From positions 261,264 through 325,263 of the forward strand of contig JALHMJ010000001.1 of NCBI GenBank assembly GCA_022844105.1: a stretch of DNA of 64,000 nucleotides, given 5' to 3'. Below the pieces are notes generated by a model. The model saw only the letters and a list, made by a program, of their open reading frames with translations. It searched no databases and was not told the origin of the DNA. The stretch comes from Hyphomicrobium sp. (GTDB taxonomy: Bacteria; Pseudomonadota; Alphaproteobacteria; Rhizobiales; Hyphomicrobiaceae). Below are positions 28,857-35,034 of this stretch, one piece after another. The position numbers were made by a program, and so were the translations under genes. Within the stretch, counting starts at the first letter, position 1; every line of letters begins with the position of its first letter.

Positions 28857-31043
<2,187 letters not shown>

Positions 31044-31201: not shown

Positions 31202-31504
31202 ATGTATGATTGGCGATCGAGGGTCCGACAGGTTCTTGTGCTGCTTACGAGCCTGTGCGCGACGGCCTACTTCACCCATCACGCAATCCACGGACGGCAT
31301 GGTCTCGAGGCGCGCTCGGCATTGATCGAGCGGGCGGATCTCCTTGAATTCGAGATCCGGAGTCTCGAGACCGTGCGCTCCCGTCTGCGCCACGATGTGG
31401 CTCTTCTGACGAGAAACCAACCCGACTCCGACTTCATTGAAGAAATTGCGCGCGATGTCCTGGGCTATGTTCATCCCGACGACCGCGTGATCGTCACCCG
31501 CTGA
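31202..31504 (+). CDS. FtsB/DivIC family septum formation initiator
   Basis: TM segment plus coiled coil (LEARSALIERADLLEFEIRSLETVRSRLRHDVALL) and ...DFIEEIARDVLGYVHPDDRVIVTR; after eno. Confidence 0.88.
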   Translation: MYDWRSRVRQVLVLLTSLCATAYFTHHAIHGRHGLEARSALIERADLLEFEIRSLETVRSRLRHDVALLTRNQPDSDFIEEIARDVLGYVHPDDRVIVTR

Positions 31505-31512
31505 CGGGCCGC

Positions 31513-31740
31513 CTACTGCCCGTGCCGGAAAACGATGGCCCAGATGTATGCGGGAAGCCGCCCGCTCTTGCTTTCGACGCCGAGGCGGCGCGCGAGTTCG
31601 TAGCCGCGCTGTTCGACCTCCTGCACGGCACTGTCGCTATCGCGTCCATCGACCGAAAGCGGGGTGTGAGGCGTCGCTACCGCAAGGTAATCCTGGAGGG
31701 TCACATTCGCGGTGGGGTTGGTTCGTACGAGATCGTCCAT
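31513..31740 (-). CDS. small hypothetical protein
   Basis: MDDLVRTNPTANVTLQDYLAVATPHTPLSVDGRDSDSAVQEVEQRGYELARRLGVESKSGRLPAYIWAIVFRHGQ. Confidence 0.55.
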   Translation of the reverse strand: MDDLVRTNPTANVTLQDYLAVATPHTPLSVDGRDSDSAVQEVEQRGYELARRLGVESKSGRLPAYIWAIVFRHGQ

Positions 31741-31956
31741 TGCATGGGCCCTAGATCTTGACAAAGAAGGTCAGCGTGGCAATGGGGCGATGAGAAGGCA
31801 CTCCGACGTCCCCCTATGCTATTGGCCGAGTTTTTCTGTTGAAATCGGACATACGACAGTAGCGTGGGGGTGGGTTGCGATCCGCGGCGGCCTGCCGCAG
31901 TATCTATGGGCGGCTGAGATGACAAAGCCGCGGGGTAGGGGACGACACTCACCGTG

Positions 31957-32793
31957 ATGACTGTCACTCGCCAAGTTTCACTTGCGCCAGCGCCGGCCGA
32001 GACTCTTCGTGCCCTTTTTCTAGCGATGTCGCGAATGCGCCGCCTGGAAGAGAAGGCGGGCATGATGTACGCGCTAGGAACCCTTGGCGCGCCATTGCCA
32101 CTCGGGATCGGCCAGGAAGGCGCGATTGCCGCGCTCGCGGCCGCTACGACGCCGGACGATTGCGTGGTCGCGCTCGATGCGGGAGCGGGCTTGGCCCTGG
32201 CTTTGGGTGCGACCCCTGGCGAGATATTTCAGCGCTTACGGTCTTGCGAAGATGACAATGTCGATCGCTCGGCCGTCCTGCGGCTTCCGGGCGAGCCGCC
32301 ACGGCGTCTGGACGTTGCGACGGCCGTGATGACCGCTGCGGCCAGCGGAGCGGGCGTCGTACTGGCGGGGCAGCATGCCGCGCCGCTGATGGCCGCCGCG
32401 GCCGAACTTGCCAATGTCATTCTGGCGGTCGTTATTGCGCCAGCCGATCGCCGGCCGCCGGTGTGGCCTCAATCTCAAGATTTTTTACTGCGCGAATGCG
32501 ACGGCGCCGATGTTGTTGGTGTCAACGTTGCCCTTGTTGCTGCGCGGGAGGGTCATGGCCTCGGCGCCCACCGGATCGGGCTAGCCGTGTTGACGCCGCC
32601 GTACGTGGGGCACGCGCGGACAGAAGGTCAGCGAGCAACCGTGCGGCAGGATCGTCCCGATCCACTTGCGCGATGCCGGCGCTACCTGATCGACGCCGGG
32701 GTAACGGAGGCTGAAATCTTGGCCATCGAGGCATCGGCGCGGGACGAGATGGCGATAGCTGCCCGTGCTGTCGCGCTCGCATGTGCGGAATGA
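31957..32793 (+). CDS. degenerate pyruvate dehydrogenase E1-alpha-like protein (predicted pseudoenzyme)
   Basis: LRALFLAMSRMRRLEEKAGMMYALGTLGAPLPLGIGQEGAIAAL and PYVGHARTEGQ...DPLARCRRYLIDAGVTEAEILAIEASARDEM align with PdhA; GDG...NN ThDP motif absent. Confidence 0.75.
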   Translation: MTVTRQVSLAPAPAETLRALFLAMSRMRRLEEKAGMMYALGTLGAPLPLGIGQEGAIAALAAATTPDDCVVALDAGAGLALALGATPGEIFQRLRSCEDDNVDRSAVLRLPGEPPRRLDVATAVMTAAASGAGVVLAGQHAAPLMAAAAELANVILAVVIAPADRRPPVWPQSQDFLLRECDGADVVGVNVALVAAREGHGLGAHRIGLAVLTPPYVGHARTEGQRATVRQDRPDPLARCRRYLIDAGVTEAEILAIEASARDEMAIAARAVALACAE

Positions 32794-33074
32794 GCGCTGG
32801 TCAGGCGCCAAAGGCGAATCGCCGGGGCCGGCTCGTCGCCCGCCCGTCGGGTGGGCCGTACTTTCGACAGAAATGGTCTTACACCCCGCTGATCGTCATC
32901 GGCCATCGGGGGCAGGTCGGCCTCAACTGGAGGCATCCGGGAGCACCGGTCGCCTTCGCCCTATACGTCTTGGCCCTGCCACTCATCGTTTTGGCAAATC
33001 TGGGCGACCGAGCACATCGAACCTGGATTTCGCGGAACGAGCGGGCCGCATTCAAACGGCGTGGGCTTTTGTGA
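32781..33074 (+). CDS. small hypothetical membrane protein
   Basis: Overlaps the end of the PdhA-like ORF; one TM (VAFALYVLALPLIVLANL). Confidence 0.5.
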   Translation: MCGMSAGQAPKANRRGRLVARPSGGPYFRQKWSYTPLIVIGHRGQVGLNWRHPGAPVAFALYVLALPLIVLANLGDRAHRTWISRNERAAFKRRGLL

Positions 33075-33234
33075 TGTCGAACCGTGGCGGAATGGCCGCG
33101 CATCCACAGATTCGGCGCCATTGATCGCGTTCTTCAACCGCTCAAACGGTTGCCTCGGCTATCTCTCGTGTCATCGACGGTCCTAGAAATCAGTCGTGAA
33201 GAATCGCGACTCAGCGCGACCGAGGGAAATCGCT

Positions 33235-33687
33235 ATGACCAACAATTGCTTGAAATTTGCGCTTGCGGCCCTGGGGGCCTTAACCGTCTCCGGATGCGCT
33301 GATGGTACGAACGGCTTGCTGTCCACGGCCACGATCGGTTCGGGACCGACCACCACAGCTGCGAAATTCGATCCGGCGTGCGTTGCGCTGTCGTCGCGCA
33401 TCGATGCGTTGCGCAAGGATGGTGTCGTCGATCGGGTCGAGAAAGCCGCAGCCGGAACCGGTAAGTCTGTGACCGTCAAGCGTGAATCCCTGGTCAAGAT
33501 CACGGAACTCGATAAAGCCAACGCTGAGTTCCAACGCAAGTGTTCCGTGCCACTGCCGGCCTCCGCGGCTGCACCAGTTGCTCCCGCAGCGGCCAAGCCG
33601 GCGGTGAGCAGTGCTTCTCCGGCAGCGACGGCCACGAAGTCGGCTTCTGTTGCGGCGGCGCCTGCAACGACAGCGAAAGCTCCGTAA
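33235..33687 (+). CDS. hypothetical lipoprotein (paralog 1)
   Basis: Lipobox ALTVSGCADG; CVALSSRIDALRKDGVVDRVEKAAAG...KCSV core; Ala/Pro-rich C-terminus. Confidence 0.7.
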   Translation: MTNNCLKFALAALGALTVSGCADGTNGLLSTATIGSGPTTTAAKFDPACVALSSRIDALRKDGVVDRVEKAAAGTGKSVTVKRESLVKITELDKANAEFQRKCSVPLPASAAAPVAPAAAKPAVSSASPAATATKSASVAAAPATTAKAP

Positions 33688-33909
33688 ACGGGGCTCTGCC
33701 TTCATTCGCTCACGATGACTTGTTTCACTCTTGATGAGCTTGGGTGTGACTGCAGCAATGAGGTCACTATGCGTTCTTGCTATGGGACCTGGGGGTTGCG
33801 GTGCGGGGACGCGTGTGTGAGACACGCATAAGATGGTCGCGCGGGGCGGCAGACGAGGACGGTCGTGGTAACGCTGAAGGTCGGACCACGGCGAGAGGGG
33901 CTGAGGGCG

Positions 33910-34221
33910 ATGGTGTCGTACGAAGTGGTGAGCGCAGGCCGACGCGCGCGCGCAATCGTGGCTGCATGTCTGACCATCTCGGTTGCGGCTTGTGCGGGCG
34001 GCGGTGGTGGCTATGGCGACCCCGGTGCGCGGTCCCTGCCTCCCGGCGAGACATGCCAGTCTTTGCGCGGCCAGCTCGATCGACTTCTTGCCAAGGGCGT
34101 GCAGCCGAAAGTCGAGGCGCTGAGCGCGGGGCGGGCGCTTTCGGCGCGCGATAAGGCCGATGCAGAGTCCTACAATCGCATTCTCAATCAATACCTTGGC
34201 GCACGCTGTCACGTCGCTTAA
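33910..34221 (+). CDS. hypothetical lipoprotein (paralog 2)
   Basis: Lipobox-like SVAACAGG; CQSLRGQLDRLLAKGVQPKVEALSAG...RCHV core resembles the preceding ORF. Confidence 0.65.
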   Translation: MVSYEVVSAGRRARAIVAACLTISVAACAGGGGGYGDPGARSLPPGETCQSLRGQLDRLLAKGVQPKVEALSAGRALSARDKADAESYNRILNQYLGARCHVA

Positions 34222-34243: not shown

Positions 34244-34519
34244 ATGGAACAGGCCATTACCGCGTTGCAGAATCCGTGGGTGGTGATGCTCATCAACGGC
34301 CTTATCGCGGGGTGGCTGGCGGGTCTCCTGCTCGGGGGCGGTGGTTTGATCCGCAACTTGTTGGTCGGTATCATCGGCGCCATTCTTGCCGGCGTATTGA
34401 TCAAGGCTGGTCTGTTGATCTTGCCGTTCACCACCGGATTTGCGCTCGGGGATCAGATCGTCGTTTCGACCGTTGGCGCAATCATCGTTGTTATCATTGC
34501 GCGCATCATCGCTCGTTGA
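34244..34519 (+). CDS. GlsB/YeaQ/YmgE-type (transglycosylase-associated) small membrane protein
   Basis: NGLIAGWLAGLLLGGGGLIRNLLVGIIGAILAGVLIK... Confidence 0.8.
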   Translation: MEQAITALQNPWVVMLINGLIAGWLAGLLLGGGGLIRNLLVGIIGAILAGVLIKAGLLILPFTTGFALGDQIVVSTVGAIIVVIIARIIAR

Positions 34520-34551
34520 GGGTGCATGCGCGCTCAAACAGGTTGCTTTTG

Positions 34552-35034
34552 GTGCCGCGCTTCAATTCTCTCCGCTCCGTTCCGTTCTCGGCCGATGAGA
34601 TGTTTGCACTCGTGGCGGACGTGGACAAATATCCTCTGTTCGTGCCGTTGTGCGAGAGCCTGATCGTGCATAGCCGTGAGACGGCGCCCGATGGTACCGG
34701 CTCGATCACGGCCACGATGGGGATTGGCTACAAGGCGATCAGGGAAGAATTTACGACCCACGTCGCGCTCGATCCGGCCGCGCGGGCGATTGTCGTCCGG
34801 CATAAAAATGGTCCCTTTCGCCGACTTGAGAATGTCTGGGGCTTCACCCCGCAGGGCGAGCAAAGTTGCGATGTGCATTTTGCGATCGACTATGAATTCA
34901 GCTCGCCCCTGCTGGCGGTGATCATGGGGGCTGTTTTCGACAAAGCCTTCCGGCGGTTTGCCGAGGCTTTTGAAGAGCGCGCCACGGTGGTCTATGGACG
35001 CCGCGCCATCGCTGCACCCCAAGCACTGATCTGA
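34552..35034 (+). CDS. RatA/COQ10 family START-like protein
   Basis: FNSLRSVPFSADEMFALVADVDKYPLFVPLCESLIVHSRE...; GTG start likely. Confidence 0.92.
   Translation: MPRFNSLRSVPFSADEMFALVADVDKYPLFVPLCESLIVHSRETAPDGTGSITATMGIGYKAIREEFTTHVALDPAARAIVVRHKNGPFRRLENVWGFTPQGEQSCDVHFAIDYEFSSPLLAVIMGAVFDKAFRRFAEAFEERATVVYGRRAIAAPQALI

Follow-up and report, generated by a model that had tools for sequence, protein, structure and literature searches.

A shortened relative of pyruvate dehydrogenase E1-alpha, probably kept as a pseudoenzyme, in Hyphomicrobium

Here, we report an open reading frame in a 64,000-nucleotide stretch of the genome of a Hyphomicrobium, a bacterium that lives on one-carbon compounds (the window), that encodes a shortened relative of PdhA, the E1-alpha subunit of the pyruvate dehydrogenase complex (PDH). 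With a probability of roughly 0.7, this former pdhA survives as a pseudoenzyme whose role is non-catalytic, in binding or regulation. Sequence evidence speaks strongly for a protein that is both constrained and catalytically dead, and an E1-alpha that seems to have lost the ability to bind its cofactor and to be under selection suggests a second job for the subunit. The protein shares with metabolic pseudoenzymes of regulatory or scaffolding function the loss of catalytic residues and the retention of fold and selection, and differs from them in that the whole parent complex is gone as well. A PDH E1-alpha pseudoenzyme of this kind was not found among the open-access papers searched. The genus is apparently without PDH genes and its family shows PDH loci at graded stages of dismantling; if one subunit indeed outlives the enzyme time after time, this natural series singles out a second function of a central metabolic protein and opens it to direct tests.

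Kinship with E1-alpha and the altered catalytic middle

The frame lies on the forward strand and runs from a GTG at position 31954, or an ATG at 31957, to a TGA at 32793 (278–279 codons). The sequence-only reading had placed the gene at 31957–32793; the frame proved real and open, but the GTG is the likelier start since GTG-ACN is found at the matching place in five relatives, and the pdhA-like gene is here given as 31954–32793. An assembly artefact is ruled out, as six separate genomes agree on the gene.

Profile-profile comparison was chosen for the question of kinship because a Pfam and NCBIfam scan was ambiguous by itself, its scores staying under the respective cut-offs. NCBIfam TIGR03182 matched the protein with an E-value of 1.4e-11 and 43.9 bits, below the equivalog cut-off of 393.85 bits, and also matched the orthologues (six of six), while Pfam E1_dh (PF00676) gave 15.2 bits against a gathering score of 22. 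When the profile of the six orthologues was aligned by hhalign with nine genuine E1-alphas, 257 columns were joined at 26% identity (probability 99.6, E-value 3.4e-24). A search with PF00676, as the sequence-only reading had proposed, was thus not in itself decisive and the relationship was found by the profile-profile route; the claim that both ends of the product align with E1-alpha is confirmed by this alignment together with the TIGR03182 match. On these sequence comparisons the frame is proven to encode a shortened relative of PDH E1-alpha, the resemblance being far above chance. Common ancestry with PdhA (TIGR03182/TIGR03181; PF00676) extends along nearly the entire length and the locus is shared, and both proteins have an N-terminal ..PCPL.IGQE block and a C-terminal GH...DP.A...L...G block. 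Unlike PdhA, with its approximately 340 residues, the pdhA-like protein has 278 and is without the YRxHG, GDG...NN, SMHMF/GGHGIVG and phosphorylation-loop-A segments, its scores lie below the Pfam and NCBIfam cut-offs, and neither E1-beta nor a PDH E2 was found in its genus.

The GDG...NN motif of thiamine diphosphate (ThDP) enzymes holds Mg2+ and ThDP. In the alignment with genuine PdhAs, ALDAGAG occupies the position of YRxHG, AGQHAAP that of GDGAANQGQ and APADRRP that of ENNxYAMG, the stretch SMHMF...GGHGIVG is partly deleted, and the loop after ENN is mostly deleted. Both YRxHG and GDG...NN are replaced in six of six orthologues, which do not qualify as functional ThDP-dependent PDH E1 proteins. 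The earlier description of a lost ThDP signature and a missing middle accordingly stands, the replacements and deletions being seen in all six species.

Conservation is concentrated at the two ends. The best conserved N-terminal block (MRRLEEKAGMMYALG..LPLGIGQEGAIAAL.., positions 32031–32169, forward strand) contains R26, R28, R29, E31–M36, Y38, G52 and E54 as invariant residues in alignment A1. A C-terminal block (LTPPYxGHAR ... DPLA...RR.L...G ... ARDEM..AARA, 32590–32775, forward strand) has the invariants L212, T213, P214, Y216, G218, H219, R221, R230, D235, R241, G248, E258, R262, D263, E264, R270 and A271, and still carries the G-H of the E1-alpha GHS loop. Altogether the alignment of orthologues has approximately 60 invariant columns, with P.PL..G.E near the N-terminus and LTPxYxGHxR ... 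RDE..A..RA near the C-terminus as retained motifs, and mean pairwise identity is 60% in columns 14–98, 35% in columns 99–178 and 53% in columns 179–282. The AF2 model (pTM 0.75, mean pLDDT 66) is confident in the terminal helices, above all helices 236–246 and 251–277, and weak in the middle. Structure prediction, called for by the sequence-only reading, favours the kinship with E1-alpha: Foldseek against the PDB matched the model to PDH and branched-chain E1-alphas with TM-scores by query of 0.59–0.69, the model being guided by an alignment that contained E1-alphas, while folding from the single sequence gave a pLDDT of 39 and an unusable model.

The former catalytic domain contains the invariant residues R109, P111 and G112, D164, R165 and P167, and R179, E180, C181, D182 and G183, which could indicate a remodelled pocket that senses a small ligand such as pyruvate or another 2-oxo acid. 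This explanation is unlikely, however, as part of RECDG is ancestral, VDG being common in E1-alpha, and the middle is the most variable part of the protein.

The ancestral locus and the apparent loss of PDH

Genera whose PDH appears intact have the gene order eno-ftsB-pdhA-pdhB-pdhC-lp1-lp2-(lpd)-lipA-ratA; the genus of the window instead has eno-ftsB-[pdhA-like]-small ORF-lp1-lp2-GlsB-ratA, without pdhB, pdhC or lipA at the locus. All members described here are on the forward strand. Upstream, synteny identifies the enolase gene eno (29757–31043) and an ftsB-like septum formation initiator gene, named from its sequence (31202–31504). The pdhA-like gene is overlapped at its end by a small, membrane-protein-like ORF of 97 codons (32781–33074), which occupies the position of pdhB/pdhC, is 40–44% identical in four of five genus relatives and has no Pfam match. 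The lipoprotein-like genes lp1 (33196–33687) and lp2 (33865–34221) belong to the ancestral PDH locus and were seen at almost every locus inspected in the family; neither matched a Pfam family. A ratA/COQ10-type gene (34546–35034), also recognized by synteny, closes the locus. Just before it, where most outgroups have lipA, this gene is absent at 34519–34546 in the genus; 2-oxoglutarate dehydrogenase (OGDH) should need lipoate. The reverse strand carries an ORF of 83 codons (31513–31764) between ftsB and the pdhA-like gene; three relatives have it at 45–48% identity, and Pfam gave no match to it. The neighbouring genes are colinear with those of the family, which argues for vertical descent of the pdhA-like gene. 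Transfer from elsewhere was considered and rejected, a scan of a collection of genome contigs having matched nothing but ordinary E1-alphas from Spirochaetes, Bacteroidetes and Nocardia. Across 397 genomes of the order, no further full-length match to the protein was found at an E-value of 1e-12.

Whole-genome searches covered the six genus genomes, four of which are at least 96% complete, and found no other complete PDH E1-alpha in them. The E1_dh profile detected the E1 of OGDH and, weakly, transketolase and 1-deoxyxylulose-5-phosphate synthase (DXS). One draft (G005; 89% completeness, 6% contamination) has E1_dh fragments of unassigned source at contig ends (C19, 108 bits, and C39). A separate E1-beta was not found in the six genomes: none has more than three long proteins matching Transketolase_C (PF02780), and those of G000 proved to be transketolase and two DXS paralogues, which rules out the third protein as a fused E1. 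The two DXS paralogues of the genus correspond to L002 and L004 (G000:C6 and G000:C3). Nothing reached the cut-off for aceE in the six genomes, pyruvate:ferredoxin oxidoreductase was not found in them, and no PDH-type E2 was found, the single E2 of each genome adjoining the E1 of OGDH. From these searches the genus seems to have lost the complex that converts pyruvate to acetyl-CoA.

What is left of this class of enzymes in the genus is one OGDH E1, one E2 and an E3. E1-alpha belongs by origin to a 2-oxoacid dehydrogenase complex, and the pdhA-like protein could therefore work with another such enzyme, for instance as an accessory subunit of the OGDH complex, the sole one left. We consider this improbable: the OGDH E1 is of the single-chain type, which needs no alpha subunit, and the OGDH genes lie on another contig (G000:C16), not co-located with the pdhA-like gene.

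A lack of PDH in Hyphomicrobium was reportedly described in the 1970s. Cleavage of malyl-CoA in the serine cycle yields acetyl-CoA. G000 contains a serine-cycle operon, sga-mcl-mtkA-mtkB-ppc, encoding serine-glyoxylate aminotransferase, malyl-CoA lyase, malate-CoA ligase and PEP carboxylase, in which mtkA scores over the NCBIfam cut-off for malate-CoA ligase. Such an operon can supply acetyl-CoA, which makes it understandable that a cell can do without PDH. Since the 1970s a low or missing PDH activity has been under discussion for methane and methanol users with the serine cycle, while pdh genes are still present and expressed in sequenced representatives such as Methylosinus trichosporium OB3b (PMC3615186).

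Conservation and selection across the genus

The pdhA-like gene is of full length, free of stops and in the same slot in all six genus genomes, at 42–84% pairwise identity; the orthologues that the sequence-only reading had suggested to seek in the eno-ftsB context are thus all in place. Pairwise dN/dS, calculated by the Nei-Gojobori method with our own script, was 0.34 in the closest pair (dN 0.091, dS 0.267) and 0.15–0.32 in the other pairs, for which dS is high and rough. These values indicate purifying selection, and no frameshifted copy occurs among the six genomes. In the closest pair the neighbouring genes have dN/dS of 0.01–0.16 (eno 0.01, ftsB 0.13, ratA 0.08); the pdhA-like gene evolves faster than these, so part of it may be weakly constrained. 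In a neutral simulation without indels, 1.8% of the frames stayed open at d=0.27, the distance of the closest pair, and 0 of 2000 at d=1.3. The gene thus combines lost catalytic motifs with purifying selection across species, as in a retained pseudoenzyme.

A conserved 30-bp element, TTGCSATMYGYGGCGGSCTGHCGCAGTATC (31875–31904, forward strand), precedes the GTG start by 42–50 nt in six of six genomes, each of which contains exactly one copy at up to 3 mismatches; 24 of its 30 positions are invariant. It may be a promoter/operator or a leader. A sigma-70 scan makes no call on the element, Rfam gave no match to a known RNA element, and membership in a regulon is ruled out by the single copy per genome. 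An N-terminal extension of the protein was likewise rejected, since the element, inspected by eye, is in frame in G001–G004 and out of frame in G000 and G005.

A slowly decaying, functionless pdhA relic, open by chance or because the loss is recent, would agree with the faster evolution of the gene relative to its neighbours and with a lost and poorly conserved catalytic middle, but it is highly unlikely given the full frame in all six species across near-saturated synonymous distances, dN/dS well below 1, the conserved blocks and upstream element, and a neutral probability of staying open of 0.02 at the smaller simulated distance and none at the larger, even without indels. Of the two fates offered by the sequence-only reading, recent decay is not borne out; the retained pseudoenzyme draws support from the six full-length frames, the dN/dS values, the simulation and the upstream element.

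Dismantled PDH loci in related genera and a possible second function

About five further cases of PDH dismantling at the same locus were observed in other genera, and the pdhA frame was intact in every case. In g12 (four species) pdhC is missing from the locus, the lipoyl lysine of PdhB is replaced and its catalytic His128 (human numbering, by our own count) is changed to Asp. The locus of g20 (two species) is also without pdhC; GDG of PdhA has become GKG or GQG, Glu59 of PdhB is changed to Pro and the lipoyl lysine is lost. G082 (g14) has no pdhC at the locus, a changed GDG, Leu for Glu59 and no lipoyl lysine, while in G093 the lipoyl lysine is lost in both PdhB and PdhC and the E2 motif DHRxxDG reads DQRxxDA. 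A degenerate pdhA alone remains at the locus in g15 (two species). Purifying selection is seen here too, with dN/dS of 0.15–0.26 for pdhA in g12, g20 and g15 and for pdhB in g12 and g20. Several of these genera have more E1-alpha-like genes away from the PDH locus.

The degenerate PdhA proteins of g15 (G085, G086), g20 (G094, G095) and g14 (G082) resemble the one in the window, being encoded in the same slot by an open frame with GDG destroyed, at loci from which PDH is partly or wholly missing. They differ from it in being longer (approximately 310–340 amino acids), and the four tested still score above the Pfam cut-off; g20 and G082 also keep a degenerate pdhB, unlike the genus of the window. 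In a tree built from six neighbouring genes (midpoint rooted, one locus), the genus of the window stands beside g14 and g19 (support 100) and g12 beside the intact g10 (support 87). Since this tree interleaves dismantled with intact lineages, five to six losses, including that in the genus of the window, look independent, and those in g15, g20 and G082 are probably separate from the latter. This parallel dismantling, like the absence of the rest of PDH from the genus genomes, lay beyond the sight of the sequence-only reading and is in favour of a retained pseudoenzyme.

Under the reading of a retained pseudoenzyme, PDH would have become dispensable in a serine-cycle ancestor that obtained acetyl-CoA through malyl-CoA lyase. 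Subsequently pdhB and pdhC would have disappeared, and E1-alpha would have had its ThDP/Mg site and catalytic loops deleted or overwritten, so that the helical blocks at its N- and C-terminus remained, as a protein of 278 residues. This protein presumably folds as a trimmed E1-alpha, the helical ends of which could bind another protein, or a ligand, in the manner of a scaffold or regulator. That E1-alpha was repeatedly retained once its partners were gone suggests a second function that predates the losses, one probably present in E1-alpha before PDH was lost. More tentatively, the PDH E1-alpha of the whole family might have an ancestral function independent of PDH catalysis, so that serine-cycle lineages repeatedly lost E2, then E1-beta and then the ThDP site while keeping E1-alpha, the genus of the window representing the most reduced form; we hold this wider scenario to be somewhat less likely than its negation. 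A connection of the pdhA-like protein with cell division or carbon supply amounts to no more than a lead. In Bacillus subtilis, E1-alpha reportedly affects Z-ring placement (Monahan 2014); with the neighbouring ftsB this precedent offers a lead to division and nothing firmer, because the adjacency to ftsB is ancestral.

PDH loci of several genera of the family (L089–L092, L175–L184) look catalytically dead in various ways, through the lipoyl lysine, His128/Glu59 of E1-beta, the E2 His or GDG, even though the frames have stayed open. In G041 (g10, L184) the pdhA frame is apparently split into two overlapping pieces; either the gene is frameshifted while the rest of the PDH locus is intact, or the sequencing was at fault.
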